Shown piece by piece: positions 8,703 through 25,851 of a stretch of DNA of 26,989 nt. The position numbers were made by a program, and so were the translations under genes. This DNA comes from a virus, in the IMG/VR virus record IMGVR_UViG_3300030419_007472, positions 1 to 26,989 of that record; one strand, 5' to 3'. How positions within the stretch are numbered: the first letter of the stretch is position 1; each line of letters starts with the position of its first letter. The notes beneath the pieces are model-generated. The model did no database searches, was not told the DNA's origin, and was given only the letters and a program-made list of their open reading frames with translations.

Positions 8703-11700
8703 CTACTTTATCACCTCCACTGACAAATCTATTTTGACATTCTCAAACAAAGAAATATTATCATAAGGCCAATTATAACCAATAATTTCTGAATATGTTT
8801 TGAAATTCTTTAACGCTGAATCTTTCATTATCCTCGCGCCGAATTCAGCGCCCTCCGGAAAGGCGCCGGCGGCTTTTGCGTAAGCCACTCTCTCGTGTTG
8901 TCTTTGTTTGTATGCGCTATAATTCTTAAGGCCACGCTCTTTAACCTTGAACACCATAAATTTTAAATTTTGATAAAACTCTTTTGATGTTTTGTACGGC
9001 ATGCTTGAAACATCTTCATTTATAAATTCTGCGAACTTTGTTTTAGCCAGCAAGAACGATGGGTGCAGAAAGGTGTGAGGTTGCATTCCACCCAAAGTAA
9101 CCGCTCCCGGGAGGCCACTCACGGCGCCGACGATGGAGTCGGAGCGCTGGACTTGGCCAGCATCCGGATTTATACAAGGCATCCAGCTAGGATTTGTGCC
9201 GGCGGGGAAAAACATACTAGTTTTAATTTTGACATTTTGTCTTACTATTTCAGCTTTCAAGCTAGAGTCTGGCATGACGTTTTGGTACATATCAATCAAC
9301 TCTTCTTTGTTGAAAGTGTGAGAAATAGGGACAATAATCATCTGAAAGGGTTTAATTGGGAAATGAACAGGATTAAATTGAGGTGGCATCTCGTAACCAT
9401 GGCGACCTTCAGACTCCTCGCCCTGTATTAAATCAATCATTTTATATACATCTGTCTGTTTCGCCAGTTCTAACTCTTTTAAAGATTGATATCCCATGAA
9501 CTGGGATTTTTTTACCAACCATTCATCAGACGTCGTCGGATTTGGTGCCGTAAATACGGCTTTTGTTAGGTTGACAGATAAAAGATTATTGAAAAGCTCT
9601 TCGTGGATCGGTAAGAAGTGTTTTCCGGGGATGACTTCTCTTGTTGAGTAGAGATCGTCGAGCATGGGCGTGTCGCCGACTCTAGAGAACAAATGAATTC
9701 CTTTCTCTAGGTACGGGATAATCACCATAGCTTCTGATACCGTTTTGCTGTTTGCGATTCGACCAACATTTACACTTTTTTCATCATTCGCATCGTTTAA
9801 GAATTTCAATTCTAGCGATAACGGAGCGAATTTTTTAGGATCAGCAAACTCATCGTCTCTTGTGGTATAGAAGCCGTCCAAGTTTCCTACGCTACCTACC
9901 GTGGTGTTGAACGCCATCTGGGAATCTGAAGGATCATTCACTCTGGACGGATGTCTAAGCACCAATCTTACACCCTTGTCGTATTTCGCGATCTCGGCGG
10001 GATCTTTTAATTGTACGTTCGAGCCATGTAGGTTTGTAACATATTTATTAACAGAAGCAATTTCGGGGCCATATGGATCAGTACCATACCCACCCCAAAG
10101 GCCGCGGCCCGTGGTCGTGTCGTGAAACGAATTCGTCATAAAGCCGATAGTTTTGTGTTTTTCGCCATTTTCTTTTGTGTATCTATCTTTTATATATGTA
10201 GAATATGAAGACGAAAAGTCTAAAACAGGGCACACCCACTTGGGAGATATATAATGCATTTTATATGGCGCCTCGGTGGGGTCCAGGCCGCCGCCGGAGG
10301 TTCCGTCAGTACTTCTGTTGAATATTTTCATTTCTATTGGCATACGGTTGATTATGCTAATGTCAAGCTGAGCATCAGCTTTCATCCGACCGGACGTAGG
10401 CCTCGTATTGACGATAGAGCTGGTGCCGGGCCAGTGCCGACAGAGGTGCTCTAGGCCTGGACCGACATCATACTGCTCAAAATAGACACTTTGAGCGCTA
10501 GAGCTAGCGGCGACAGCTGCGAAACTAAGTGCGGGGACGGCAGGAGTCGTAAAGCCAACCAAGCAGCTGCTGTTGCCATAAAAGTAACTAGGGGTATAAG
10601 CTTGATATGCTGGATCTTGTAAGTTCGCTGCAAAATAGCTTTCATAATCGCCCCCTGGTGAGCCATCTAGCCGGAATCGAGGGTGATGGCCCCAGCTGGT
10701 GGCCTCAGAGGTCGAAATAAACGGAGACCTTACGTATGGTTCAGTTCTAAACGTCTCTTCTCCCGTGAGGGGGTCGATGTCTATAGCAGTTCCATCTTCA
10801 GTGACGGAGCCAGACATTTGTACGATCTCGGAAGGAGGACCAAACAAATACCCTCTCATCGAGAAGTTCATGCCTGGAAAAGTGAAAGCATTATACTCGT
10901 TCTGTCCAGCGCCGAGACCGGCGTTACGCGGACCTTCGCATAAAACTTGATTCTTCCCCATCTCCAAGGCAACCTCCATATAATATTCTTTACCTGACGC
11001 AAGGTTGTATTCTCCCGGATCCAGGCCAGACACTATGTGAGGCAGCTTGACACCAGGTAGATTTTCCTGGTCTTCGAGATAGAAATTCATGGTCTCGCAT
11101 AAGAAATTATTTATTGAAGCTTCATAAAGTTGTTTATTAAGATCTCCCGTTATACTAGACGGTTTTTTCTTCAGGCGAGCGCGCGGGCCGGTGGGTATTT
11201 GCGCATAGCCTGGATGATGATAAGATTGTTGGATTCCAACCAATTTTGCCTGTTCGGCGCGGGAAGCAGAGACTGGTGACGAAATGTCTAAATCTAAAAA
11301 GTCCGCTGTTAGATATAAATAATGACCCTCGCCAGAAAACTGATCAAGGTAGTTCAAGTTATAAAGTGCTTCGAAAGGCATCCGGGTAGGGTGTCCTGAA
11401 TTCAATATTGCAGGGATGCAACGCGATGCCCCGCACATTTGAAAGCCCCCATAATTAAAAGTCGACGTTACATGTTTGGTAAAACGATCATCGTGGTGGG
11501 CGCTCTTGGTGAGGTGGCCAAACATGTATCTATCATTAACAGCATCATATTGATTTTTGTTGTCTCCGTTGAACATGGTGACATCCAGATATGCTTCATC
11601 GCCAATACCAAAATTTCCTGTCGGATTTAACACACCCGACATAAAAGTCATAGGGGCATGATAAGCGGGCATGTAGCGAAATACCGGAAAGTCGACGGCG

Positions 11701-14700
11701 ACGCCTGATTTTATAGAATTATATAGCAAGCCAGGCGCAAAATATGGCTCTAAGAAGCACTGGAGGGCGCCCGGGCGAAGATCATCCTGTGTGTTCCACC
11801 CGTGCTGGCCATCTTCATATGTATTTTTGAGTTCATGCTTGTACACACCTTTATCTCTTTCTTCTTGAATGGCGTCCCTGACGGCCTGGGCGCTAGCTGG
11901 TGTGTCCAAGTTGCCGTATATAAACTTTTTAAATCTATTGCCAATTTCTATTGTTTTGTCGACGACGTAAAACTTGCCACGAGGACGAGGTTTTTTTACT
12001 GCCTCTACTGAAAATTCTATATTGAGGGGAATTGTAGATTCCCCGCTCTCAAAATATTCCATTATATTAGCAAACTGAACTAAGCCGTCAGGATGAGCAA
12101 ACTTTTCATAGAACAACACGGATGAAGAATTTTGAGACCACAACAGCTGCGCTTTGGATAGTGTTGATTCGGAAGTGGTTTGTGTGTTGGGATCAAAAGT
12201 GAAAATCTTTTTTGTATCAGCATCACTAATTTCTTCATATCTTGTTATCGTGGCGCTAGAGGTCTGATCTGCTCCTTCTAAAGATAAATAATTAGCCTGA
12301 ACGGATTCAATTGTATTTCCTCCCACAAAGCCGTTTGGATACGGAGACTTATAATAGTGTATATTTAGAGGCTTTCCTTTGGGCTCCCACACATCAAGTC
12401 CTGCTCGGACGAACTTCATGAACAGGTGGCTCGTGGCGCCCTCTTCGCCATCCGGATTCTCCCACCAGGACCGAGCCGGGACCAAATTATACACACGATC
12501 GTTCAGGGCGAATGGTAGTGAAAAAAGATAATCTAGATTTTCTTCTGCTAGATATTCCGGAACAATTGTATATTCCCTACCTATAATATCTAAATTTTCT
12601 GAATAATCACTATACGAGTTAAAGAACGGGCCTCTTTGTCGAATTTCTTGAGTTGCATAGAAGGGAGTATTGTAGGGAAAAGCGTGTCTATTGTATTGCA
12701 TCGAGGCAGTTTGTGATCTATACCCCTTGATAGCCACTGCGTCATCAGGTGCGATGTGGAAAGGCTCTGCGTCATTCGGCAAGACCGTAGATCTGGTTGT
12801 GTATGTGCTCCTATGATAAAACATGGTTGGCTTGGTGCTATAAACTAGTTCACCGGCTGAGCCTGTTTGCAGGCGCTGCAGTTGACCATAAGCTCCGGTC
12901 GCGCTGTACTTAAGCCTGTATGTTGAGGCTGCGCCGGCAAATTGATAAAGCAAATAATCGCCTGATTCTAAGAGAAGGCCTCCTCCGGAGAATTCGGTTG
13001 TATCTGTCACAAAAGATTCTGTAAATACAGAATTGCCCCGTTCCGCGTATGTGTTGTCTGCCTTGCTAAACTCCAGCATTCTGTGAGGAGTCAAGCCAAT
13101 CTGCATGCCTTGACCTCCAATACTGGAAGTGGAATACTTTAAAGGTGTGTAAATGCCCGTTGTAGTGTTGTGGGAGCCCGCAAATAGATCTGGCCGGGGA
13201 TCTAGTGGCCACATACTCAATAAGCTTATGGGGTATGGTTGATAAGTTTCATGCTCTACAAAAGCAAAACCCGGGTCGTAGGGGACATTCGACGCATTAA
13301 CTCCAGCGCCGATACCGCCCTGGAAAAAGCCTTCCCGAGAGCCATCCTCAGCATATATTGTGTCAGTGGAAGACGTTAGAAGAATAGACTGGCTATTATA
13401 AGTTGCCGCGGTGCCCAATATCGCGGTTGAACGAGGGCCAGATATTGTAAAAGTAGTTTTATCCGGCGAGCCGGTTGTGGTGCCAAGTGAGGCCGTCGCT
13501 TCCATGGCCATAAGGTGTACTGCGTCACAAATTCTCTGCGCCAAAGCAGCATCGTCGCCATCTGTAAGATCATCCAAACCAACCAAACAACCGACGCCAC
13601 CGGAGGTGGCAGGAACTGTCGTTAAGACGCCCGAAGTACCACCCAGGGCGTCGCCAGCCCGGAAAGTTTTATCAAACTTAACGGTTCTGATTCGGCCTGC
13701 GCCGAGACCGCCCCAAATATCAAACCACTCTCCGTGTGCGCTTTCTTTAGTCCAACCACCGGTGACGAATAAAGTTACCGAGGATCTCACACCTGCGGAT
13801 CCGGTTGTTGTGTCGAGGCCGGCGGCTGGAATTACGCCATTTTCTAGATATACTTGATTTGAATTTTGATGTGCAACATGGCCATCTGGGCGTACCATAA
13901 TGCCGGGATCAAGATTCGCGACGAGCTGCTGGTCTGCTACGTGACCATAAGCGGCCGTATATTGGATCACGTCCGAGTGTATATAAAACCTAGTATCATA
14001 GGTGGTTTGTACAATTTCTTGAGAATTGAGGGCAGTTCCGTCTGTCCTTATCCTCGTCGTGCCATTCGAATCAATATTTTGTGCCAAATCAGGTGTAACA
14101 TTTCTCCAAAAAGATCTATTAATCGCGCGGTCATAACCATTATGGCCTGTGCCAGCGACTTCTTCATATTTTGGCCTTTTGTTTTTAAAAACTCTAAATG
14201 TGTTAATAGATTTGGGGAAAATAGTTTGAGTATAGAGGAAGTTTGTTCCTCCATATTGACGTGCTGCAAGTATTAAATTCAAGTATTTTCTATTTGACAC
14301 TCTAAAGTTTTCTAATTTTTGAGTTCCGGAAATGCCGTTGTTGCCGATGATCTTCATTAGCTTATTAAATTCATCATTTTCAAAAAACAACATCTGGTTG
14401 CCCAAAGTTGTTCTGGCAACCATAGCTTCTGAGCCTCCGGGCTGTCCTACTATATTAACAGCTTGCAGTTGATATAAAAATGGCTTATGTTGGACAGAAA
14501 CCGACGGCTCGTAAAAATGTTGAGTTGAATTGTAAGCGGCTGGCTGTGTTGTTTCGCTGTCTATTGACAACGAAGGCTCTTCTGAAGGGCCATATTCTTT
14601 TCCCAGATCTACGTTTGTTAAGTTCTGCACTCTTGATCTTTCGACTGCGCGCGCTGACTCTCTTTTGCGAGCGTCTGGAGCATTTCTGTCGACAGACATG

Positions 14701-15191
14701 GTGTTGTGCAATCTTAGGCGTCTGGCTACTGGGTGTTCTCCTCCTCGTATTTGCTTCCACGAAGGGTGCTGATAAGGACCATTTCTATGAAGCATCAAAG
14801 CATTAAAAAGCGTTGGGTCCGAAAAAGCTATGCCTGGGCCTCCTGAGACACCGCCGGCGCCCATGTGGCCGACGCCGCCAGGACCGACTAGGTTATAGAC
14901 TGGCACATAATAACCTGGGGCACCGCTGTCATCGCCGACTTTTGCGGCGGCGCCGGGTGGAGTTCCACCATCATCATCAAACATAGGCACATCTACTGGC
15001 CGGCCCAAGAAGTTTTCAGAGGCAGTTAGCGGCTCCCTCACAACGGTATTTAAACCGACAAAGTCAACCGGAATAAAACCTTTAGCCGTGGAGTCAGTTT
15101 GGTCTTTCGTAAGAGTTCTGCGAGCGGAGCCTGCCACAAGGCCATACTCACTGGAAGTTAGAAAAGTTATTGATCCGCTATATAGAGCCAT
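8703..15191 (-). CDS. Giant (2162-aa) phage structural protein, fold unknown
   Basis: The start is ATG 15191-15189, with AGAGGT at 15197-15202, 5 nt upstream. The N-terminus (MALYSGSITFLTSSEYGLVA) leads into a Gly/Pro-rich segment to about residue 115. This is followed by a conserved-looking block at ~285-340 containing NRKYLNLILAARQYGG and LYTQTIFPKSINTFR. The long middle is rich in Tyr, Phe, Pro, Ser, Thr and Gly with no recognised enzyme domain, signal peptide or membrane helix. The C-terminus contains KFMVFKVKERGLKNYSAYKQ and ends with IGYNWPYDNISLFENVKIDL. A comparable NWPYDxxSLxExxKxD ending is one I recall from large structural proteins of uncultured marine phages (memory only). Base composition is markedly richer in G+C near the N-terminal end than in neighbouring genes. 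It sits between the gpI-like/lectin protein and the 335-aa protein. A baseplate-peripheral or fibre protein is the best inference; the exact function is unknown. Confidence 0.85.
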   Translation of the reverse strand: MALYSGSITFLTSSEYGLVAGSARRTLTKDQTDSTAKGFIPVDFVGLNTVVREPLTASENFLGRPVDVPMFDDDGGTPPGAAAKVGDDSGAPGYYVPVYNLVGPGGVGHMGAGGVSGGPGIAFSDPTLFNALMLHRNGPYQHPSWKQIRGGEHPVARRLRLHNTMSVDRNAPDARKRESARAVERSRVQNLTNVDLGKEYGPSEEPSLSIDSETTQPAAYNSTQHFYEPSVSVQHKPFLYQLQAVNIVGQPGGSEAMVARTTLGNQMLFFENDEFNKLMKIIGNNGISGTQKLENFRVSNRKYLNLILAARQYGGTNFLYTQTIFPKSINTFRVFKNKRPKYEEVAGTGHNGYDRAINRSFWRNVTPDLAQNIDSNGTTRIRTDGTALNSQEIVQTTYDTRFYIHSDVIQYTAAYGHVADQQLVANLDPGIMVRPDGHVAHQNSNQVYLENGVIPAAGLDTTTGSAGVRSSVTLFVTGGWTKESAHGEWFDIWGGLGAGRIRTVKFDKTFRAGDALGGTSGVLTTVPATSGGVGCLVGLDDLTDGDDAALAQRICDAVHLMAMEATASLGTTTGSPDKTTFTISGPRSTAILGTAATYNSQSILLTSSTDTIYAEDGSREGFFQGGIGAGVNASNVPYDPGFAFVEHETYQPYPISLLSMWPLDPRPDLFAGSHNTTTGIYTPLKYSTSSIGGQGMQIGLTPHRMLEFSKADNTYAERGNSVFTESFVTDTTEFSGGGLLLESGDYLLYQFAGAASTYRLKYSATGAYGQLQRLQTGSAGELVYSTKPTMFYHRSTYTTRSTVLPNDAEPFHIAPDDAVAIKGYRSQTASMQYNRHAFPYNTPFYATQEIRQRGPFFNSYSDYSENLDIIGREYTIVPEYLAEENLDYLFSLPFALNDRVYNLVPARSWWENPDGEEGATSHLFMKFVRAGLDVWEPKGKPLNIHYYKSPYPNGFVGGNTIESVQANYLSLEGADQTSSATITRYEEISDADTKKIFTFDPNTQTTSESTLSKAQLLWSQNSSSVLFYEKFAHPDGLVQFANIMEYFESGESTIPLNIEFSVEAVKKPRPRGKFYVVDKTIEIGNRFKKFIYGNLDTPASAQAVRDAIQEERDKGVYKHELKNTYEDGQHGWNTQDDLRPGALQCFLEPYFAPGLLYNSIKSGVAVDFPVFRYMPAYHAPMTFMSGVLNPTGNFGIGDEAYLDVTMFNGDNKNQYDAVNDRYMFGHLTKSAHHDDRFTKHVTSTFNYGGFQMCGASRCIPAILNSGHPTRMPFEALYNLNYLDQFSGEGHYLYLTADFLDLDISSPVSASRAEQAKLVGIQQSYHHPGYAQIPTGPRARLKKKPSSITGDLNKQLYEASINNFLCETMNFYLEDQENLPGVKLPHIVSGLDPGEYNLASGKEYYMEVALEMGKNQVLCEGPRNAGLGAGQNEYNAFTFPGMNFSMRGYLFGPPSEIVQMSGSVTEDGTAIDIDPLTGEETFRTEPYVRSPFISTSEATSWGHHPRFRLDGSPGGDYESYFAANLQDPAYQAYTPSYFYGNSSCLVGFTTPAVPALSFAAVAASSSAQSVYFEQYDVGPGLEHLCRHWPGTSSIVNTRPTSGRMKADAQLDISIINRMPIEMKIFNRSTDGTSGGGLDPTEAPYKMHYISPKWVCPVLDFSSSYSTYIKDRYTKENGEKHKTIGFMTNSFHDTTTGRGLWGGYGTDPYGPEIASVNKYVTNLHGSNVQLKDPAEIAKYDKGVRLVLRHPSRVNDPSDSQMAFNTTVGSVGNLDGFYTTRDDEFADPKKFAPLSLELKFLNDANDEKSVNVGRIANSKTVSEAMVIIPYLEKGIHLFSRVGDTPMLDDLYSTREVIPGKHFLPIHEELFNNLLSVNLTKAVFTAPNPTTSDEWLVKKSQFMGYQSLKELELAKQTDVYKMIDLIQGEESEGRHGYEMPPQFNPVHFPIKPFQMIIVPISHTFNKEELIDMYQNVMPDSSLKAEIVRQNVKIKTSMFFPAGTNPSWMPCINPDAGQVQRSDSIVGAVSGLPGAVTLGGMQPHTFLHPSFLLAKTKFAEFINEDVSSMPYKTSKEFYQNLKFMVFKVKERGLKNYSAYKQRQHERVAYAKAAGAFPEGAEFGARIMKDSALKNFKTYSEIIGYNWPYDNISLFENVKIDLSVEVIK
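8710..8718 (-). promoter_or_regulatory. Near-consensus ribosome-binding site for the 335-aa gene
   Basis: The minus strand reads GGAGGTGAT here, matching nine bases of the full anti-16S consensus, with 7 nt to the ATG at 8702. It lies within the last codons (VEVIK) of the upstream giant gene, whose TAG directly precedes the ATG. It is the strongest ribosome-binding site in the window and suggests high expression or efficient re-initiation. Confidence 0.85.
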
Positions 15192-15228: not shown

Positions 15229-18200
15229 CTAAATTATCGATCCTGTTATCCATCTAGTTTGATTATCTGTTCTTGGTATCATGTGTGAGACATAAGCGTT
15301 GTCAAACATAGTTTTCTCTTCAGCTGCCACAAACACATAACTTGAGTCCGCTCCTAGTGTCCCAGAAACAGTGTCGGATCCCCCGTAAAGAGAGGACGTA
15401 AGAATCGTCGGGACCAAAGACGTCGTCGCTGCAAATGATGAAGAATCCGCGTGGGCATTAGTCTCAGTACGCTGTTCTGTGTCTGGTGTAGAAGCTGCAT
15501 TAAATAAATAAAGTTTACTTAACGCGCCGACCTCGTGGTCTCTGGTGGAGTCGCCAAACCTGTACCAACCGACTAGATCAGACGCAGCCGAATGCGACAA
15601 AAAGTTGCACGTTTCGCCACTAGTATTGGCGACACTGAGCTGTGCGACCTGAAGGTCTGAAAGCACACTATTCCATATTCCAACCTCAGCCATTCTTCCT
15701 TTGAATCTCCTAGTGTTGTAATAATCATCTGAATATCCATTACTCTCTATCATGGCCAGGTCTACGCATGGACCTTTGAGTGCGGCGCCGATAAGATGCG
15801 AGTTGTTGCCGGCGGAGGTGTCAGATAAGTGTGCGGTCGCTATGTAACTTCCACTGGGCGAGAATCTTTCGAAAGTTCCCACTTTTTGACCATCAATATA
15901 GAAAGTAGGCTCAGCACTAGAGCTAGCATGGCTGCCGGAGGCCTGACTAATTGACATAGCTACATGGTGCCACTGGCCTGCGGTTATATCTCCAGACGCA
16001 GTTACTTCAGAGGAGTCGGTACTAAACCACACACCTGGACCTTCATCGCCAGCCAAGCCATCTGCGTTTGTGTTGTGTCCAAATTTAGATAGGTACCCGA
16101 TTCTTCTGCTAGTATCGCCGGCTGAGCCTGAAATGACAAAAGCCCGGTAGCCAGAGTCTGGCCTATAGTCCTGGTTAGTGATAATAGCGCCGGCACTACC
16201 GAGTTGCACTATACCACACACTCTTCCGGAGTTTTCTTTGGCGGTTCCTACACCGCTGGGGGTTGAAAGGCCAGACATGTCTGAATCATAATTTATCCAT
16301 GCTGCTATTGTAAAAGTATCCAAATAAAGAGGATGGTCAGCGGATCCGGTTTGCAAATAATATTCTGTCTGATCGAACTGGGCATGATGTCTAGTTGGAG
16401 TTAAAACAACGTTGCCAACACTTTTGCCTCCAACTGACGCGGTGATGGGCGCAACAGTAGCTCTTTCAGCGCCATTTCTATGATACTTGTGCGCTGATGC
16501 ATCTCCTGAAATTGTATAATCAAAAGCATTAATTGTTCCTGGTGTTTCGCTGCCGTATACCCTAGCTGTTGTTGTGTCGTGCGTGCTAACGCCATGGCGT
16601 CCTTGGTGCGCCTGAAGTTGCGTGTTGTAGACTTTTCTAGGCCATAAATTTCTGAAAGTCATAGCGTTGTTAGGTGAGTATGTTTCGTGCTCTGGGTCTA
16701 AGAACCCTCTAGATAACGTCTGCATTCCTCCTGGTGAACTAAACCTTGTCTTAATTCTAGTTCTATTTCTAACCGTGCCGGTAATATAGCTTCTATCTAA
16801 AAGCGTATATTCTGGAGCCATGGCGTGGTCCCGAGAGATTCCGGGCTGGACTGTAAGAAGATCATTTAAGTTTCCAGCTGCGAGTCTTAGCTTGTGATTT
16901 GCAGTAAAATTATCTATATTTTTAACAAAATATGGATCGTTGGCCTCGGGACTTACCGTACTAACATATTCATATCTGTCTAAGAAATTACCAGCATTAG
17001 TTGGCGAATTTCCAGTCATATGGATGTTTCTGATATTAACAGGCCGCTTTGCTAAAATACCCCTAGTATATGGAGCGTATGGTCTGTTGTGATCATCATA
17101 TGTTGGATGCAGTAGTTTGAATGAGTCCTGTAAAACTCCATCGCTGGCCTTATATAAAACAATACTATCTATAGCAACGTCACCTAGGTGGGTTACACCA
17201 GCAGTATACAAGAATCTCACATAAAAACGCTTCCCCATCCAGCCTGCAAATCCAGATCCTTGGTCTGTTGTGGAAACATATGCCAAAGTCCAGTCGTCTG
17301 ATGGAGATTCGTGCTGCTGACCTGACAGGTGGCGCCCTCTGCTTGAGGCGCTAGAGCCCCAAGCCACAACAAGATCTTCAACGCCCGAAGTAAAGTTTGG
17401 GTCTGATGATGCTTGAACTTTTAGTGTGCCTATTCCACTGCCGTGCATGTGATAGCGGAAAACAAGCCGAGCTAAAGAGCCCTCATCCAGGTCTAAAAAG
17501 TCTATCAAAGGTGTAACCAAGGAGAAGGTTTGGCCCACCTTGGAGGGAAGAACCTCACAATAGGCATATCCGCTATTGTCATCATATGCTGAAGCCGGAC
17601 CAGTGCCGGCAGACGGAGTAGAGCCAGAAAAGAAAATCCAAGGATTTTCAGCATTTACTCCATTTCTCCAATATTCATATGCGCTTGGCTCTCCTGATAT
17701 AGACCCGCTTGGAAGATTTAAGAGTGACGCGTCAGTTTGCGCTGTTGATGTAGCAAATTCAAAATATTCCTGGAAAAAGTAGTTGACCTGGCCAGTTTCA
17801 TTTAAAAACTCCTGCAAATGCCAAGCCTCTGGTCTGGTGAGTTGACTGTCGGCTCCAGAATTTAATTTTACATGTCGATGCTGGGATCCTCCCACATATT
17901 TTTCTGTAAAGGGGCCTTGCAAGGGGATTTCATTATCATATCCATACTTGTCGCTGTGCAGATCAGTGAATTCTAGACCAAATTGGTCCGAATATACTTT
18001 TTGATACCCAGAATTCACAGAAGAAGAGAACAAAGTAAAAGGCAAAACTAAATTGCTTTTCGTATCCGTATTCCTTTTGTCATTAATGCCTGTGCCGTCA
18101 GCATCAGAATCGACCGTTTCGTCAGCCGGCATGACAAGTGCATCGAATCTAAATTTTTTCTTAGTAATTTCTACTGGCTTAATAAGATCGTCACAGACGC

Positions 18201-21200
18201 GTGCCTTGAGTTCGTTGTCAACGTCTAAGTAAATGAAATCATCATCGCTACCCCACTTCACTACTGTTCTGTAAAGATCGTGCATTAGTCTGTTGTCTTC
18301 AGAATTCGCGCCGCCTTTTAGCTTCAGAGAACGGTTGGTGACCAGATCGACTGGGCGTGCAAGACTTCTATTGTAATAATAGGTACTATCATATCTTGCG
18401 CCTGCAGAAGTTTTATATACCGGCGCGGCCCCTGTGACATCTGTAGTAACAATTCTTAATAATGTAGCCTTGTTGCCATCAATATCACCATCTCCAGAAG
18501 AAAGTGGGCCATCTCTCTCTGCACGGTCCTTCCACCATAAACAATTTTGATTTTGGTTTGTTTTTTCATCTGGATTAAGAGGGGCGTGGCCTAATCTCCA
18601 ATTATATTTTAACTCCTCTATAGCTTTTAAAGAGGATATTGGATTGTGAGGCTTTATCTCAAGAGTGGGAAACTTGTTATAATACTTATTTCTTTCTAGT
18701 ATGTGACTTTCCACCATGTTTCGCAAAAAGCTAACTGAATTAGAAGACACAGGTATCAGCTCAGCGATCATGATTGTTACAGCATCATCAACCCACTTAA
18801 AATATTGTATAAATTTCTCTAAATCTAAAAACTCGCTTTCTACATTTTCAAAAAAGTATTGTCTTATCTTTTCTAGCTGCTTGTAGTTCATCCTATAGCG
18901 ATTGACAGGATCTCCGATAAGATTATTGAAGTCAGATATAGAGGCAAACAACTTTAACATATCTTCAGATATAGATTGATACATGCTTTTTTCAACAGAA
19001 AGCAAATTCTGTATGTATGTGGTGTCTCTAGTAAACACAACATCGTCTCGCTTGTCGAGAATTTTAACCATATCGGCGCTTCCGACGACTTCTGGCAGCT
19101 TCAATTTGGCCGTAGGAACAAACTCTATGTCAACAACTTGATCCAAGTATAAAGAATCAGTAATGAATTTGTCGCCTCTTCCAGAATAGTCATATCTGCT
19201 AATTGCTTTAGACCAGTGATCTCCCATCTTGTACTTGTCGTTTGCAGATCCGGATGCAAAATCATCAACTTTAAATTGCCCTGACGCGTTAGAGCCAGTT
19301 ATGTTTTCAAAAGTCCAGTTCATAATTAAGCTAGATATTTGAGGAGCATAATTGGTATTCAAAGAATTAATGTAATTTTTATATGGCGAGAATGTACCAT
19401 AAGAAGAAGCATTTCTAGCGTGCGAGCGTATAACATCATTTGTAAGATAATCCAACCATACCCGAGTAGAAGAAACTTTTACATCAGAGTGCGTCGCGAT
19501 GGTTCCTGTATAGTTTGTTCTGTTAGCCCCTATGTAGACTCTTTTCGGCTTTGCAAAAAACTTTTCTGCTTGTGCAAGGCTAATTGTGCCAGATATAGCA
19601 AACTCTTCTTGTTGGATGTCGGAAGAAAAGTTGACTCCATAAAGCTCATATGTGTAGGCAGAAGCAGCAGGCAGCAAATAGCCGGTACTGGTGTTGAGCT
19701 GATAAGATTCATCTGTTGGAGCCTTAGTGGGCCTTAACCTAAAAGCAAGATTCCACTTTTCATTATTGTAAATGTTGGGAAACGACGAGCTGTTAGATAT
19801 AGATGCGAAAACAGGTGACGCACCGGTCGTCGACAAAGCAAACTTTGCGCTTCTTTTATTTTCCAGATCTTTCACAACTGCAATATTAAAGTTTATATCG
19901 TTGTCTGAATCAAAAGTAAGGTCTGTGTTCGATGCACCAACTGCATTAAGGCCAAAAATAGAAGAAGTCAAGCCAGGGAACGATGCGTCTCTTAGATCAT
20001 TAACAACGTTTCTCTTCGGAAAGTGCACCTCTGTCTCTAAAGTAAACATAGCTCCGGAAAGAACAGAATTGTCTGGCGAAACGGCTGGAATATAAGAAAT
20101 AGATTCTGCTTTTCCAGAGGTGTAGTACTGATAGACAGTACCTCCGTACACACCAGCCAAAGAATCTGAAGCCGTGAGTCTAGTGTCAATATCGTCAAAA
20201 TCGATATATCTCTTTCTGACAGCCGTATTTAGTGTCCTGTCTTTTAGTTTAAACGTTTCGTTATTGGAGTAGATATTTAATTTTATAAGCTCCTCATCGA
20301 CACCAAAACATCTCAAGAAGTTTCTTAAAGCCTTTTCTGTTCCTTTTGCTTTTTGTATGTAAGAAAGATTATTATAGATGTTTTGATATATTGTATTTTT
20401 TACGTCATAAAGCTTCTTTTCAAACAATATCTTTTCATCTCTATTGAGATATTTTGCTAAATCACTGACATCTGCGAAAAGCTCCGGAGCTAAATAGCCG
20501 CGGCTTTCGAGTAGTCGATCGGCAAAAGGCGATGATTTTTCGTAGTATCCTTCATCGGCATAATTGACGTTCTTCAAAGAAGGTAGCTTCTCTATTTGCA
20601 TATATAGATCATCAAAATAACTTGCAATTATTTGTGTCAGATATTTTAAATTATTAGAACTTTCCTCATCCTCTTCCAATATCCAAGCTGGTAAAGATTT
20701 GTATATAGAAGAGGCATTCTCATAATCGTGAATTGATCCAGAAACAGTCTTATTGTTTAGAAGATTTGAAACATCCGGATGCGTAGAATATATTATAGGA
20801 TCTTTAAATTCTTTTGCGGCGGCCTTGGATAATACCATGGCAGACCCTGTATTTCTAGTTGTAGAGGAATTGTAATTTATAAATGTTCCGTTAGATATTC
20901 TGCCAGAATAGTCTAAAACCTTTTTATCTTGTGAAGCTACGCCAGCGATTCCTTCATTAAACTTGTAATAGACACCCAGGTATACTTTGTTCGAAACATC
21001 ATCATATTTGATATTATCAGTATTAGTTCCGCCGCCGATTTGATCTATATAAAACCTTCCAATTTCTTCAGCGGTTCGTTCGGTCTTCCAATATCTAAAT
21101 TCATCTAACTGCGCAAACGTCAAATTGCCCCAGCCGGCTGCTGCGTAATAGCCAAGAGCAGAGGAGCTAACTGAATGAGCTAAGGCTCCTAAGGCGCCTC

Positions 21201-22140
21201 GCATGGTTCCTGTTATCGGGCTGACTTTATTTGACGCGTCAATAATCTTAGACTTGTGAACTCCGTCGACGTATAAATTAGACACTGTTCCGTTGCCATG
21301 CGTTTTGACTGTAACGGCATAATGATGCCAGCTTTGGTCAGCTATACCAACCGAAGTGTTTAGTCCTGTGTCGTGATCAAATGTTATTCCAACAGAACCA
21401 GACTCCAAAATTAGTGTCATTTGGTGGTCTTGGTCTGTTTTACCTCTAGTGCGCACCCTCAAGCTTCCATAGTTGGAAACGGCCGAGCCTGTGCAGATGT
21501 TGTGGAAAATATACTCGTCTTTATCTGCAGAAGTTGAAGACCACCCGGTCTTTCTAAGCCAAAATTCTACAGTAATGCCTTGACTGAGATCCATTTCTAG
21601 ATTGTTGCCGCGGCCTGAATCTAGATCATAGATGTTTGCCTTAGACACGAATGTCTTACTTGGGCCGGCCTTTAAATCTTTTTTAAAATTGCCGTTTGGA
21701 TCGGCGTGTGGGCCGCCGTAGAAAGTAATATATTCTGGCGCCGACGAACTATAAATAGAATTAGTGCTTGATACAGTGTACGTGTGCGAAGAGCTGTTAA
21801 AGTTTACAAAACCATTTGTTCTAGGATATTCATTTTCGAATATAAAAAGATCTAAATACGTACTATCATTTTCCCATTCGATTTTTTCAGCCTGAGAGCC
21901 GTCGTACGGATAGGTCTGGTATATTCTTTTAATTGCAGAATTATAATACTCTTCCGCTAATCCAAATCTAGCAAAATTAGAAGCGGTAGTAAAATCCACA
22001 TCTGGAACGTATCTATCTCTTTTCTTTGAATATTCGTCGACGTATCTATAAGACTCAACACCGCTAGCAAGGTCGTCTTTAGTCTTATTTTTAACAAACT
22101 TTAGAGAGTGCCCCTTGTCAAATAGATCTTTTATACTCAT
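15229..22140 (-). CDS. Giant baseplate/adhesin protein: tail protein I-like segment with LamG-like and MAM-like domains
   Basis: I prefer ATG 22140 (MSIKDLFDKGHSLKF), giving 2303 aa. A TTG at 22152 is an alternative, with AAGGA at 22157-22161 only 4 nt before it but 16 nt before the ATG. Domains by pattern: residues ~162-395, laminin-G/concanavalin-like (GITVEFWLRKTGW, SWHHYAVTVKTHG, QLDEFRYWKTERTAEEI). Residues ~480-620, helical, with LPAWILEEDEES and YIQKAKGTEKALRNFLRCFG, which fits the KGTxxAlrxxLxxxG signature of P2 gpI-type tail proteins. Residues ~697-927, a second, more divergent concanavalin-like sandwich (NNEKWNLAFRLRP, STRVWLDYLTNDVIRSHAR). Residues ~1040-1170, helical. Residues ~1500-1663, MAM-like (TPSAGTGP, YHMHGSGIGTLKV, GDVAIDSIVLYK). 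Residues ~1930-2198, a third LamG-like domain (TFTIAAWINYD, QWHHVAMSISQ, GRMAEVGIWNSVLSDLQV). Two DxDxDG loops lie at ~1215 and ~1344. Following W and J in order supports a wedge role plus surface binding; the fusion reading is inference. Confidence 0.85.
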   Translation of the reverse strand: MSIKDLFDKGHSLKFVKNKTKDDLASGVESYRYVDEYSKKRDRYVPDVDFTTASNFARFGLAEEYYNSAIKRIYQTYPYDGSQAEKIEWENDSTYLDLFIFENEYPRTNGFVNFNSSSHTYTVSSTNSIYSSSAPEYITFYGGPHADPNGNFKKDLKAGPSKTFVSKANIYDLDSGRGNNLEMDLSQGITVEFWLRKTGWSSTSADKDEYIFHNICTGSAVSNYGSLRVRTRGKTDQDHQMTLILESGSVGITFDHDTGLNTSVGIADQSWHHYAVTVKTHGNGTVSNLYVDGVHKSKIIDASNKVSPITGTMRGALGALAHSVSSSALGYYAAAGWGNLTFAQLDEFRYWKTERTAEEIGRFYIDQIGGGTNTDNIKYDDVSNKVYLGVYYKFNEGIAGVASQDKKVLDYSGRISNGTFINYNSSTTRNTGSAMVLSKAAAKEFKDPIIYSTHPDVSNLLNNKTVSGSIHDYENASSIYKSLPAWILEEDEESSNNLKYLTQIIASYFDDLYMQIEKLPSLKNVNYADEGYYEKSSPFADRLLESRGYLAPELFADVSDLAKYLNRDEKILFEKKLYDVKNTIYQNIYNNLSYIQKAKGTEKALRNFLRCFGVDEELIKLNIYSNNETFKLKDRTLNTAVRKRYIDFDDIDTRLTASDSLAGVYGGTVYQYYTSGKAESISYIPAVSPDNSVLSGAMFTLETEVHFPKRNVVNDLRDASFPGLTSSIFGLNAVGASNTDLTFDSDNDINFNIAVVKDLENKRSAKFALSTTGASPVFASISNSSSFPNIYNNEKWNLAFRLRPTKAPTDESYQLNTSTGYLLPAASAYTYELYGVNFSSDIQQEEFAISGTISLAQAEKFFAKPKRVYIGANRTNYTGTIATHSDVKVSSTRVWLDYLTNDVIRSHARNASSYGTFSPYKNYINSLNTNYAPQISSLIMNWTFENITGSNASGQFKVDDFASGSANDKYKMGDHWSKAISRYDYSGRGDKFITDSLYLDQVVDIEFVPTAKLKLPEVVGSADMVKILDKRDDVVFTRDTTYIQNLLSVEKSMYQSISEDMLKLFASISDFNNLIGDPVNRYRMNYKQLEKIRQYFFENVESEFLDLEKFIQYFKWVDDAVTIMIAELIPVSSNSVSFLRNMVESHILERNKYYNKFPTLEIKPHNPISSLKAIEELKYNWRLGHAPLNPDEKTNQNQNCLWWKDRAERDGPLSSGDGDIDGNKATLLRIVTTDVTGAAPVYKTSAGARYDSTYYYNRSLARPVDLVTNRSLKLKGGANSEDNRLMHDLYRTVVKWGSDDDFIYLDVDNELKARVCDDLIKPVEITKKKFRFDALVMPADETVDSDADGTGINDKRNTDTKSNLVLPFTLFSSSVNSGYQKVYSDQFGLEFTDLHSDKYGYDNEIPLQGPFTEKYVGGSQHRHVKLNSGADSQLTRPEAWHLQEFLNETGQVNYFFQEYFEFATSTAQTDASLLNLPSGSISGEPSAYEYWRNGVNAENPWIFFSGSTPSAGTGPASAYDDNSGYAYCEVLPSKVGQTFSLVTPLIDFLDLDEGSLARLVFRYHMHGSGIGTLKVQASSDPNFTSGVEDLVVAWGSSASSRGRHLSGQQHESPSDDWTLAYVSTTDQGSGFAGWMGKRFYVRFLYTAGVTHLGDVAIDSIVLYKASDGVLQDSFKLLHPTYDDHNRPYAPYTRGILAKRPVNIRNIHMTGNSPTNAGNFLDRYEYVSTVSPEANDPYFVKNIDNFTANHKLRLAAGNLNDLLTVQPGISRDHAMAPEYTLLDRSYITGTVRNRTRIKTRFSSPGGMQTLSRGFLDPEHETYSPNNAMTFRNLWPRKVYNTQLQAHQGRHGVSTHDTTTARVYGSETPGTINAFDYTISGDASAHKYHRNGAERATVAPITASVGGKSVGNVVLTPTRHHAQFDQTEYYLQTGSADHPLYLDTFTIAAWINYDSDMSGLSTPSGVGTAKENSGRVCGIVQLGSAGAIITNQDYRPDSGYRAFVISGSAGDTSRRIGYLSKFGHNTNADGLAGDEGPGVWFSTDSSEVTASGDITAGQWHHVAMSISQASGSHASSSAEPTFYIDGQKVGTFERFSPSGSYIATAHLSDTSAGNNSHLIGAALKGPCVDLAMIESNGYSDDYYNTRRFKGRMAEVGIWNSVLSDLQVAQLSVANTSGETCNFLSHSAASDLVGWYRFGDSTRDHEVGALSKLYLFNAASTPDTEQRTETNAHADSSSFAATTSLVPTILTSSLYGGSDTVSGTLGADSSYVFVAAEEKTMFDNAYVSHMIPRTDNQTRWITGSII

Positions 22141-22167: not shown

Positions 22168-23676
22168 TTAATTATCTTCAACTCTAAATTTAAACAACTC
22201 TTCTTGCTCTCTCCAGTTCTCCGACAAGCTATAAAACAATTTTACTCCGTACAAGTAGCCGGGCTCTAAAAGTGACATATCTAAATCAAAATAACTACCA
22301 GAGTTATCATACGATAAGTAAGTGTGTTTTGTCGCGCTGCCAGTGGAGTTGTTTATAACTGTCCTGTTGTCAACAACTCTAACAATTTCATAAGAAGCGC
22401 TGGGAATTATAACACCTTCGGGGTTTGCGTTGGCCACGCTGTATATCGTAGGACTAAAGTTGCGGGCCCGCGAGAAGACTCTAAATCTAGCTGTCTCATC
22501 TTTTACATATTTTGACTTCAGATTGGTTATTTTTGTAACATATTGACTGTAATCATCTGAGAGTAAAACGCTCGTTTTATTAAAATTTTTGACTTCTATC
22601 GAGCCCGTTTTATACTCTCCTCCGATCGATCCGGACCAAACATCATGTAAGGTAGCTTCAGAAGTGTCAACAGACAATTGCGCCTTATAAACTCCGGTGC
22701 TAGTCTTAGAGGCTGTCGCTGTAGCAAGAGCTGTACCACTAGGAGAACTATCACTACTAGCATATAAACTAACTGTTATTGTCTCGCTAGAATTTGGTAT
22801 ATCCACCAATCTTCCTCTAATGTAATTGTACAAATATAAGTTATTTAAATTATCATCAGCTGGGGCCATGGAAGAGCTAGCATAAAAGTTTCCTCTGTCA
22901 TCAGTTACTCTGGAGTCCCATCTAGCTTCGATCGTGGGCTTTTTAAAGAAAAACTCACTTGTTCTAGAAAAAAATCTCTTTGTATAATAACTGGTCGTAA
23001 CCCCTTCTGTGTTGTGTAAAACCGAGTCTTCGTCTATCCCTGAAGAGTTTGAGCTATAGCCTTCGTGGCTAGACGTCAAAAACACACCAAAGCCATGATT
23101 TGTCTGGGAACCAGATATCCACTCCTCTACTGCCTCCGTGACATCAACAAAAAGATCTTCGCCTCCACTTTGAAAGGTGTAGGTGTAGTTTGGCATACTT
23201 TGGCCGGCCGTATACGAAGAAGAGTGGTAGTCACCACCAACTTTTGCCCATTTTGAATCCTTCGTTCTGTTAACCCAGCTAGACCCATCGATACTGTCTT
23301 TTGTTTTGTCTTCATAAGTTTCCATGTCCAGGCCGATGCCCTCTTGCCAAGATTGTGATACGGCCATAACGTTAACAGTGAAGTCGGAAGGCAGCTGTTC
23401 GGAATGTCTAGCATTATACATTCTCAAATAAAACTTAACGCTTCCTGATGCAGGTATGTCGCCGGCTGTTCGATCGGTTGAGATTGTATCGACAGGGAAT
23501 TCAACCAAGACTCTGGATAACTCAACAGAGGACGTGGTCTCTTGCCCGTAAACAGAAAAAACCTCAAGGATATCGGCGGCGCCCATGTTCGAGCCAGTCG
23601 CTCTTGTTGATAAATCAATTCCAAATGCGTTAGTTATCGTGTTGTCTTTTGTAGCAGTGTATTTTTTTATGGCCAT
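22168..23676 (-). CDS. DNRLRE-like beta-rich phage structural protein
   Basis: A 502-aa protein starting at ATG 23676-23674, which shares one base with the TAA of the J-like gene (TAATG). AGGGA at 23687-23691 lies 10 nt upstream. The first ~220 residues fit the DNRLRE carbohydrate-associated fold. They show TATKDNTITNAF, then SRVLVEFPVDTI, SGSVKFYLRMYN, AVSQSWQEGIGLDME and FVDVTEAVEEWISG with HGFGVFLTSS. The family's usual order is a DxxI strand, RxLLxF, AxLxLY, a WxEG segment and DVTxxVxxW-xG. A second half contains FFFKKPTIEARWDSRVTDDR and Ig-like beta strands, ending in WREQEELFKFRVEDN. I recall very similar proteins in uncultured marine phage genomes. It lies between J and the gpI-like giant, where P2-like phages have no gene. 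A virion decoration or wall/glycan-contact role is inferred. No catalytic residues are evident. Confidence 0.85.
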   Translation of the reverse strand: MAIKKYTATKDNTITNAFGIDLSTRATGSNMGAADILEVFSVYGQETTSSVELSRVLVEFPVDTISTDRTAGDIPASGSVKFYLRMYNARHSEQLPSDFTVNVMAVSQSWQEGIGLDMETYEDKTKDSIDGSSWVNRTKDSKWAKVGGDYHSSSYTAGQSMPNYTYTFQSGGEDLFVDVTEAVEEWISGSQTNHGFGVFLTSSHEGYSSNSSGIDEDSVLHNTEGVTTSYYTKRFFSRTSEFFFKKPTIEARWDSRVTDDRGNFYASSSMAPADDNLNNLYLYNYIRGRLVDIPNSSETITVSLYASSDSSPSGTALATATASKTSTGVYKAQLSVDTSEATLHDVWSGSIGGEYKTGSIEVKNFNKTSVLLSDDYSQYVTKITNLKSKYVKDETARFRVFSRARNFSPTIYSVANANPEGVIIPSASYEIVRVVDNRTVINNSTGSATKHTYLSYDNSGSYFDLDMSLLEPGYLYGVKLFYSLSENWREQEELFKFRVEDN

Positions 23677-25472
23677 TATCTGATAGTCCCTATGATATCT
23701 AAATCAGGATATTTTAGTTCATAAATTGTGTCATCTGGAGAATATAAAATTCTTCCATCGGCTGACTTGTATTGCTTTATTTCTAGTGTTTCCGCAGAAT
23801 ATAGGCCTCCCGACTTGTTTTTTATGGTGACATTAGTCACGTCAACTATTTCATCTAAATTGTTTAAAACATCATATATCTTTGTTATATAAATCGGTTG
23901 GCCGATATTCAATTTTTCCGAGAACATTTTTTGCACTTCTGTAATTGCAACATTCAAGGCCTCAATTTTATCTTGAGAGTAGTCGACAACCGCAACAAAA
24001 TTTATTTCTATATTGATGATTCTGGGGTCTAGAATATCAACAGTGTCGTTTAGCATTTTGTATTGATTGATCCAAGTTTTTAAATTATTTTTAAGCATCG
24101 TCGGCGTTTGAATGAGATTGCCGTCGGAATCAGAAGAAGCAACATATAAATTTAAATTTCTCTTAAAAGAGTCCCTGTCGCGATATATTTTAGCTCTCTT
24201 GATTCTTCCAAACCTGGATGGCATTCTATATATTAGTGCCTCGTAGTCACTGGCAGTCACTGCTCTATTTTGAGAAGCAAAAACATCGTTAACTCGCTGT
24301 TTTAATTCCACTAACGTAGGCGTGCTAACATCCCCTAAAATTGGCTCTTCATTAACAACTTCTAAAGAATCTCTTACAAAGGATATTTTAGTATTATTTG
24401 TCGCTTCGCTAGGGAATATAAAAACTGGACTAACAACTCCGGATAAACCGCGGGTGGCCACGTTAACGTTGTCAACCGTGTTGGTCCTAAAGGTTACAGT
24501 GAGCGTTGTGTTCGCCGGCGCAATTCCAAATTTGTCTGTTTCTAATAACTTTGATGGATCAAAAGAATTATCTTTTTCATAATTTCTTCCGTGCATTTTT
24601 AAAACAACGTTCGAAGGGTGGGTTGTGTTGTCTGTTTTTAAGTTTTGTTCCGATCCATATCCAAATTTTAAAAATATCGAATCATTTTTATTTTGTACTA
24701 TATAGCGCCGGGGGACACTAGTAACGACCATGGTATTTGGGACATGCCTTCTTGTCTCCTTGTCTTTATTAACAACAGATCTAAACACTGTATCTTGCGA
24801 CAGATAGTCAACTTGAAAGTATTCATGGCCCTCAGAATCAACAACACTTATAATTTCTGAAACATTTGGATCAGAAAGCTCTAAAGTCAAAAACCTTCTA
24901 AAATCACCAATATTGAATATTTGTGTATTTTCTTCTCCAGAAATTACTTTTCCCATAGCTCTTACTGCGTACGCGGTAGCCTGACCTGATTGTTCATCGC
25001 TTGTTGCAACGATCACCTCATTATCTGGATTTCCAAAATCAACATCATCAATTAAAGTAAATATTTGTCCTGCAGTGGTGGAAAACTTACTATCTTTTGC
25101 AAGTACTGGCAAATAGGCTTTGTCGGGCCCAGCGCCGTCGGCTGAAATTGGCGCCAAAACATACATAGAGAGAATTCCAAATGAATTTGATTTAAGTGGT
25201 TGGGTGTAACCTACTTGTTCTCCCATTCTAAGCACATTATCGTATTCTACTGCCGTATCTAGAAAAGATTCGTTGGCTTGGTAATCCAAATAAAAAGACA
25301 ATATATCTCCAACATACGAAACAGTGTCTAACATCAAAGAACCAAAAGAAGCCTCGGAGAAGTCTTTATATATGTTCGGATAATACCTCTTTGCGTAGTC
25401 TACTAAGCCCTGTTTTATGTTATTAAAATCCCTATTAGTATACTTAATTAACTTTTTGCTTTTTTTCGACAT
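23676..25472 (-). CDS. Baseplate J-like / T4 gp6-like wedge protein
   Basis: A 598-aa protein starting at ATG 25472-25470, with AAGGT at 25483-25487. The N-terminus is characteristic of gp6/J proteins: IKYTNRDFNNIKQGLVDYAK, YYPNIYKDFSEASFGSLMLD, then YVGDILSFYLDYQANESFLD and GEQVGYTQPLK. The C-terminal half has the usual LKQRVNDVFASQNRAVTASD and YEALIYRMPSRFGRIKRAKI at residues ~385-425, and ends in a gp6-type domain with IGQPIYITKIYDVLNNLDEI. In T4, gp6 forms the (gp6)2-gp7 core bundle that closes the inner baseplate ring; in P2 the counterpart is gpJ. It follows the gp25-like gene by one base, the same order as W-J in P2. A near-complete length and a continuous frame suggest an intact protein. 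This is one of the two firmest functional calls in the window. Confidence 0.93.
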   Translation of the reverse strand: MSKKSKKLIKYTNRDFNNIKQGLVDYAKRYYPNIYKDFSEASFGSLMLDTVSYVGDILSFYLDYQANESFLDTAVEYDNVLRMGEQVGYTQPLKSNSFGILSMYVLAPISADGAGPDKAYLPVLAKDSKFSTTAGQIFTLIDDVDFGNPDNEVIVATSDEQSGQATAYAVRAMGKVISGEENTQIFNIGDFRRFLTLELSDPNVSEIISVVDSEGHEYFQVDYLSQDTVFRSVVNKDKETRRHVPNTMVVTSVPRRYIVQNKNDSIFLKFGYGSEQNLKTDNTTHPSNVVLKMHGRNYEKDNSFDPSKLLETDKFGIAPANTTLTVTFRTNTVDNVNVATRGLSGVVSPVFIFPSEATNNTKISFVRDSLEVVNEEPILGDVSTPTLVELKQRVNDVFASQNRAVTASDYEALIYRMPSRFGRIKRAKIYRDRDSFKRNLNLYVASSDSDGNLIQTPTMLKNNLKTWINQYKMLNDTVDILDPRIINIEINFVAVVDYSQDKIEALNVAITEVQKMFSEKLNIGQPIYITKIYDVLNNLDEIVDVTNVTIKNKSGGLYSAETLEIKQYKSADGRILYSPDDTIYELKYPDLDIIGTIR

Positions 25473-25473
25473 T

Positions 25474-25851
25474 TTAAATGTTACCTTGTGTGTTGATTAC
25501 TATTTTTGAATCAATATTTAAGCTTGGCACGTTATACTCAACAACAACCGAAAGTACTTGACCATCTGCACCGTCATTTATAGAGACTCTAATGATTTTT
25601 ATAAAAGGCATATATTTAGAAATTTGCTCGTCAATTCGCTGCCGTATCAAGCCAGAGACACGTGTCGCAGGTTCAAATAAAAAATTTCTCATTCCGACGC
25701 CAAAATCAGGATTCATCATTCTCTCTCCAGGTGCAGTTAAGAGTAAATTTTTAAAATTTTGCTTAACCTCGTTACCAAAAGACCGAATTAAATCGTAATT
25801 TCCGAAACGAGAGTCTCTCTGTAACGGCAATTTTGGTCCTATCCCTTCCAT
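25474..25851 (-). CDS. Baseplate wedge protein, GPW/gp25 family
   Basis: A 125-aa protein starting at ATG 25851-25849, with AGAGGA at 25857-25862 (5 nt spacing) overlapping the stop of the preceding gene. Length and pattern fit the GPW/gp25 family (T4 gp25, P2 gpW). PLQRDSRFGNYDLIRSFGNE leads to a helix, then LLLTAPGERMMNPDFGVGMR and NFLFEPATR. A helix (IRQRIDEQISKYMPFI) and beta strands (VLSVVVEYNVPS, SKIVIN) follow. The LLxTxPGERxMxPxFGxGxxxxLFEP signature is diagnostic. The T4 EPR motif appears here as EPA, so the arginine is not conserved. Family members act in the inner baseplate, attaching the wedge to the sheath-initiating ring; despite an older 'lysozyme' label I see no basis for calling an enzyme. 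It is immediately upstream of the J-like gene, with a 1-bp gap. Confidence 0.94.
   Translation of the reverse strand: MEGIGPKLPLQRDSRFGNYDLIRSFGNEVKQNFKNLLLTAPGERMMNPDFGVGMRNFLFEPATRVSGLIRQRIDEQISKYMPFIKIIRVSINDGADGQVLSVVVEYNVPSLNIDSKIVINTQGNI

Follow-up and report, generated by a model that had tools for sequence, protein, structure and literature searches.

A gpI-like segment embedded among lectin-type modules in a 2303-residue viral protein with natural split and fused versions

As a rule, the baseplate wedge and the adhesin are distinct polypeptides held together by docking. The locus described here raises the question of whether one polypeptide could be both, as its initial annotation had proposed. 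It lies in a window of 26,989 bases, the whole of IMG/VR virus record IMGVR_UViG_3300030419_007472; this record may be a fragment, so the rest of the virus's own genome is outside view. The source is an uncultured tailed virus, probably a marine one. In contractile phages the baseplate is formed by (BW2)2-BW3 wedges, of which BW3 (T4 gp7, P2 gpI) makes up the periphery and holds the receptor-binding proteins (PMC10811340); such wedges are also described for XM1 (PMC10457771), with parallels in the T6SS (PMC6300606, PMC4604203).

All large open reading frames of the window are on the minus strand. In the order of transcription they are a partial 375-residue gene, gp25/W, J/gp6, a 502-aa gene (X) and the 2303-aa gene, followed by D (2162 aa), genes of 335, 1326 and 997 aa and a partial 221-aa gene. 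The genes that matter for the argument are the following:

25474..25851, minus strand: gp25/W homologue, 125 aa (PF04965, E 6.9e-14, over the cut-off; phrog_261 and phrog_43, baseplate wedge)
23676..25472, minus strand: J/gp6 homologue, 598 aa (phrog_219, baseplate wedge subunit, E 2e-18; phrog_10646, E 6e-16)
22168..23676, minus strand: X, 502-aa beta-rich gene between J and the 2303-aa gene (resembling Disaggr_repeat, PF06848, below the cut-off)
15229..22140, minus strand: 2303-aa protein, whole gene including the stop codon (413 IMG/VR relatives of its core segment)
8703..15191, minus strand: D2162, the next gene, fast-evolving and in another branch fused to the counterpart of the 2303-aa protein
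7695..8702, minus strand: 335-aa gene, which follows D in the window and the fused I+C+D gene in relatives

The frame of the 2303-aa gene is intact from the ATG at 22140 to the stop codon at 15229-15231, with no internal stop, and the single large protein first described is real. Starting at a TTG 12 bases further upstream would lengthen the protein by 4 residues; the relatives begin as the ATG form does (M..K..F).

Homologues of the protein are numerous. A 231-aa core segment retrieved 413 relatives from IMG/VR, and the family has at least four clades. Against phages, the whole protein gave no tblastn match at 1e-3; the 231-aa segment alone found Flavobacterium phage immuto at 2e-5 and Microcystis phage Mel-JY01 at 0.02. 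The homologues in these phages, immuto gp109 (YP_010114574, 1265 aa) and Mel-JY01 WWT39511 (1336 aa), are both annotated as hypothetical, and a further one of 1400 aa is encoded by the uncultured 484-kb phage LR756508. Two relatives (L208 and L209) come from contigs of very low coverage, one in a Flavobacteriales MAG and one in a Poseidoniales MAG, placements that may be host hints or binning errors. In a 157-kb immuto-like genome the homologue (L202:8954-13096) ends in a Hint/intein-like domain at residues ~1219-1367 (PF07591, E 1.4e-10, and PF01079, E 8.9e-8, both over the cut-off), and no Hint-type match was observed at any other locus of the set.

The initial annotation had likened the order gp25/W, J and I-like protein to that of P2-like phages. 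Both homologues do precede the 2303-aa gene, the J/gp6 homologue sharing 31% identity along its whole length with the immuto baseplate wedge protein; yet X intervenes, so that J and the I-like gene are not adjacent as in P2. Of 82 loci read, all 75 whose contig reaches W have the order W-J-X-I, and the same order is present in immuto and Mel-JY01. At two loci (L066 and L076) J and X are separated by about 1 kb of additional sequence. X itself was found in nearly all relatives and is kept across clades. Its match to PF06848 (E 9.9e-6, 25.8 bits) is below the cut-off of 33.9, as is the CBM96 match (E 5.5e-5) of its Mel-JY01 homologue (L082:16369-17529), and X could possibly be another sugar-binding part of the baseplate. 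On the other side of the gene, D2162 gave no convincing Pfam family (best E 0.07, below the cut-off) and no PHROG match. D2162 is ~27-45% identical to its counterparts, far below the 63-76% seen for most J proteins of the same clade, and may for this reason be the fastest-changing surface part. The partial 221-aa gene (3-665) is shared with the Mel-JY01 clade, in which L177:8314-9036 has a similar start (MAFLDNSGDIILDAVLTDTGRLRLAQG vs. MGYLDNSTITVDAILTKRGRELLAQG, the window given first).

The wedge proposal rests on a helical stretch containing the motif KGTxxALRxxLxxFG, which is indeed present at residues 599-613:

20221..20778, minus strand: gpI/BW3-like helical segment, residues 455-640 (profile-profile comparison with 15 gpI proteins)
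20230..20361, minus strand: KGT core of this segment, residues 594-637, corresponding to Tail_P2_I positions 70-116

Taken one by one, the sequences all stay below the curated gpI cut-offs, and no convincing match was obtained for any member of alignments A1 or A5. The window protein scored 12.0 bits against Tail_P2_I (cut-off 20.6), and the best TIGR02242 score among the members listed was 15.3 bits (cut-off 51.85). The near-hits nevertheless point the same way. When a 34-member alignment was scanned against NCBIfam, the two commonest near-hits were TIGR02242 (10/34, best E 0.0012) and TIGR01634 (3/34), both of them gpI families, and the KGT region was matched in one register among the members listed. 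Tail_P2_I was likewise the commonest near-hit in the Pfam scan of A5 (5/34).

For profile-profile comparison, querying IMG/VR with P2 gpI returned near-identical copies that were useless as a profile, and diverse gpI proteins were therefore gathered one by one. Alignments A3 and A5 matched 13 such proteins with P 5.5e-4, and four clades matched 15 gpI proteins with P 9.8e-5 over 114 collinear columns, which begin at a leading LP and end at the turn that follows the KGT helix. The latter score was 36.5, as compared with a maximum of 21.0 among 200 column shuffles. A sliding-window test covered seven gene families in 98 windows, of which just the three with the KGT motif stood out (P ~0.002, next 0.035).

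We also scanned 12 relatives of 92-484 kb with Tail_P2_I. Three weak spots were obtained (E 0.005, 0.0075 and 0.024); all three are the gpI-like segment of this gene, and the scan found no separate gpI in these genomes; such a gene would have spoken against the initial proposal. The positive controls (P2 and two others) gave strong signals. Weak chance matches at E<=10 were seen in some control archaea, and what counted for the spots was therefore where they lie, not only how they score. In T4 neither the Tail_P2_I nor the A5 model gave a signal, so that no direct sequence tie to T4 was obtained, and hmmsearch of the PDB with A1 and A5 returned irrelevant matches only.

Could the KGT resemblance be convergent, with another gene encoding the true BW3 and this one a peripheral adhesin of large size or a protein of the tail-fibre type? 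The sub-cut-off scores and the chance matches in archaea would fit such a reading, as would the structural searches given below, which returned no gpI or gp7 for a weakly modelled segment. We nonetheless consider it improbable, given that the register agrees across Pfam, TIGR02242, TIGR01634 and the profile-profile alignments, that none of the 200 shuffles came near the score of the 114 collinear columns, and that the 12 long relatives offer no other candidate gene. X, which stands beside J, was rejected as the true gpI: it is beta-rich, unlike gpI, and reached only P 0.035 in the sliding-window profile test. Our comparisons thus support the segment at ~455-640 as a distant relative of the gpI family. 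The wedge segment of the initial annotation holds insofar as independent tests of weak to moderate strength agree in register, and falls short insofar as the curated cut-offs are missed. If the protein works like BW3, as we favour below, it is still, by those cut-offs and by its size, outside the Tail_P2_I family.

AlphaFold predicted the segment alone to be all helical at low confidence (pLDDT 56.5), and Foldseek of this model gave no PDB match. Modelling of residues 1-1195 with 69 sequences raised the pLDDT to 70. Here residues 460-520 reached ~80-91, the KGT half 40-64, and the second helical block was poor; LamG1 and a second beta-sandwich (640-1013) were mostly confident. Among the matches listed for this model in the PDB there was none to gpI or gp7, only LG/pentraxin-type and other beta-sandwiches, and in BFVD the matches were uncharacterised marine-virus proteins.

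The remainder of the chain consists of the following modules:

21736..22140, minus strand: N-terminal block, residues 1-135, helical then beta (70% mean identity, 23 relatives)
21061..21594, minus strand: LamG1, residues 183-360 (PF13385 over the cut-off; confident model sandwich)
19102..20223, minus strand: middle beta-sandwich, residues 640-1013 (LG-like by predicted structure only)
18556..19023, minus strand: second conserved helical block (IGDP...PAS...ESHxLERxK), residues 1040-1195
17806..18123, minus strand: block C1, residues 1340-1445 (here within this gene; opens the next gene in L057 and L059)
17158..17670, minus strand: MAM-like domain, residues 1491-1661 (below the cut-off)
15370..16338, minus strand: LamG3 module, residues ~1935-2257 (PF13385 on fragment 1894-2303)
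15232..15369, minus strand: conserved C-terminal 46 residues, 2258-2303 (70% identity where present)

PF13385 matched the whole protein in two stretches with E 7.8e-18 and 65.5 bits, and separately the fragments 1-454 (36.1 bits) and 1894-2303 (46.4 bits, E 5.8e-12), in each case above the gathering score of 27.6. Lectin-type modules thus lie on both sides of the I-like part in the same chain, as had been claimed. The LamG assignment is firm at two places; the MAM assignment made alongside it is not, as PF00629 (E 0.002-0.012, best 18.4 bits) missed its gathering score of 26.4, and phmmer against the PDB gave enteropeptidase, SR-C and neuropilin-1 chains at E 0.01-0.07 only. Foldseek of the LamG1-bearing model returned neurexin LNS domains and pentraxins at E 2e-7. 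Two-domain laminin LG structures aligned over ~730 query columns, which equals the spacing from LamG1 to the middle sandwich, and the latter, modelled with pLDDT ~80-92 over most of its length, is for this reason probably LG-like too. In the immuto clade only a short linker takes its place. The second helical block has near-invariant columns in alignment A4 (G1076, Y1086, D1118, P1130, R1150 and K1152). The C-terminal 46 residues follow directly after block C2 in L001, L030 and L031, all of which are without LamG3.

Conservation divides the protein into a core and a periphery. Across 23 window-clade relatives the N-terminal, gpI-like and second helical blocks are 66-70% identical (core blocks overall 66-73%), LamG1 and the middle sandwich ~50%, and the lectin-type blocks overall 30-52%. 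For the LamG3 stretch, present in a minority of these relatives, mean coverage is 0.33 and identity 30%; LamG1 is kept in nearly all of them (coverage 0.96). In the immuto clade, most of nine relatives compared lost detectable similarity over the last ~200-300 residues, their first ~650-1040 residues being 50-68% identical. From the fold class of the modules together with this variability we infer a role in adhesion.

LG folds can, however, be structural instead of sugar-binding. The protein could accordingly be a BW3 whose LamG/MAM-type sandwiches serve as spacers, wedge-to-wedge contacts or fibre docking sites and bind no receptor, and the coverage of LamG1 in the clade is what one would expect of a structural part. 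Immuto and Mel-JY01 moreover have separate tail-fibre-like genes, and the receptor-binding proteins held by BW3 are usually chains of their own (PMC10811340). We regard this purely structural role as rather unlikely, though deserving of more weight than convergence. A scaffold would sit poorly with the scarcity and poor conservation of LamG3 and with lectin-type blocks more variable than the helical core, and in one relative FG-GAP repeats (E 3e-9) as well as LamG (E 5e-10) exceed the cut-off in the split-off second gene (L057:12363-19193). A wedge-region protein with CBMs is also known to bind cells. This protein, Gp119 of Bacillus phage Vp4, is encoded in the wedge/fibre region and decorates host cells; its homologue without CBMs, Deep-Blue Gp177, does not (PMC11406892). 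Gp119 resembles the 2303-aa protein in having sugar-binding-type modules in a wedge-region protein and differs in that these are CBMs and not LamG. It is homologous to A511 gp105, a proximal tail fibre (PMC11406892), and it may not be the gpI counterpart, because the A511 BW3 is gp105 according to PMC11406892 and gp104 according to the authors of the Milano study (PMC10811340).

We show that the border between this gene and the next is not fixed. Relatives measure ~1200-4100 aa, save for one of 647 aa. Among 46 complete window-clade genes, 30 have the split form of the window, 13 are fused with D and 3 end early. The 13 fused I+D genes encode 2,783-3,474 aa; five further fused genes are open at the contig end, the longest having 4,131 codons so far (L058). 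After the fused forms the 335-aa homologue comes next, at gaps of -1 to 84 bases, as it does after D in the window. In L057, L059 and L060 the gene stops at 1228 aa and C1 opens a next gene of ~2,250 aa. In L203, of the immuto clade, the gene has 647 aa and closes after the gpI-like part; the second helical block then opens a new ORF. The border can thus follow the gpI-like part (L203), the second helical block (L057/L059) or the LamG/MAM tail (window clade), and in the fused clades there is none. In an unrooted J tree the window's form makes up one clade (99/100) and the short immuto/Mel forms lie on one side of one branch; three changes explain all four labels.

L203 is also the one observation in line with the gpI-like part really being a gene of its own and the large size an artefact of sequencing or gene calling. 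This we find hardly credible: the architecture follows the J tree, the frame is free of stops over all 2303 codons in the window, and dozens of independent contigs carry the long open frame, for which a sequencing artefact was rejected for the window's clade. The existence of relatives in which D and this protein form one chain points to the two products being located together in the virion.

Taken together, we think it fairly likely, if well short of certain, that the protein is a BW3 subunit which corresponds to P2 gpI and T4 gp7, is extended by lectin-type modules and bears a variable, probably glycan-binding, outward C-terminal part. One wedge would be made of its helical core (~455-640, probably also 1040-1195) and two J/gp6-like chains and would sit under the gp25-like sheath initiator, with LamG1 before the core and the middle LG-like sandwich within it. 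The C-terminal ~1100 residues (C1, MAM-like, C2 and the optional LamG3) would, together with D2162, reach outward as a variable surface, and, wedge and outward modules being covalently joined, cell contact could pass directly to the wedge. More tentatively, a single chain of up to ~3,500 residues may span the distance from wedge core to surface adhesin, the border between them shifting or vanishing, and couple receptor contact covalently without a docked fibre.

The kinship with known systems is uneven. P2 gpI (PF09684, TIGR01634) and TIGR02242 share with the segment the motif KGTxxAxRxxxxxxG in register, with the preceding helices and the leading LP in the same order, and P2 gpI also its gene place after W and J. 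It differs in that its own chain is 176 aa (~180-260 aa in the gpI family) vs. 2303 aa, and in that here the scores are below the cut-offs, a gene lies between J and the I-like gene and lectin-type modules are part of the chain. In a Bacteroidota search for large gpI precedents, a Tail_P2_I/TIGR02242 domain over the cut-off was observed in a 1102-codon open frame (L216:1470-4676) of a G+C-rich genome from a phylum-level draw around the MAG of L208; the start of this frame is uncertain, and no further domain was found in it. The contrast with the small P2 gpI, which the initial annotation stressed, was overdrawn. The T4 counterpart gp7 has 1032 aa (PMC10457771) and three domains (PMC3004832), and is similarly a large wedge-3 protein with a gp6 partner and several extra domains, although LamG modules are not known from it. 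In AlgoCIS, which is a bacterial injection system and not a phage, and in which gp6- and gp7-like parts are fused, the wedge protein Alg11 has two inserted CBMs forming a cage around the spike, and the gp7-like part of Alg12 is a re-engineering hotspot that holds fibres (PMC8894135). Immuto gp109 and Mel-JY01 WWT39511 are homologous and have the same gene order, but their C-terminal part is shorter, and neither protein gives Pfam LamG matches. The proposed merging of the roles of gpI and gpH is supported on the gpI side by the distant similarity described above; further tail-fibre-like genes lie downstream in immuto and Mel-JY01, so that the protein is not obviously a gpH substitute. In sum, the original observation is confirmed, and the interpretation given to it is partly supported.

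Large BW3 proteins and carbohydrate-binding modules in wedge-region proteins are thus already known. What is new is a gpI-like domain embedded with LamG modules in proteins of 1.2-4 kaa that occur in natural split and fused versions. These versions make up a ready construct set for asking how much of the link between wedge and adhesin must be covalent, and how receptor contact reaches the sheath. At the same time, a function can be offered for hypothetical proteins of immuto, Mel-JY01 and the 484-kb phage, whose wedge part is missed by routine annotation.
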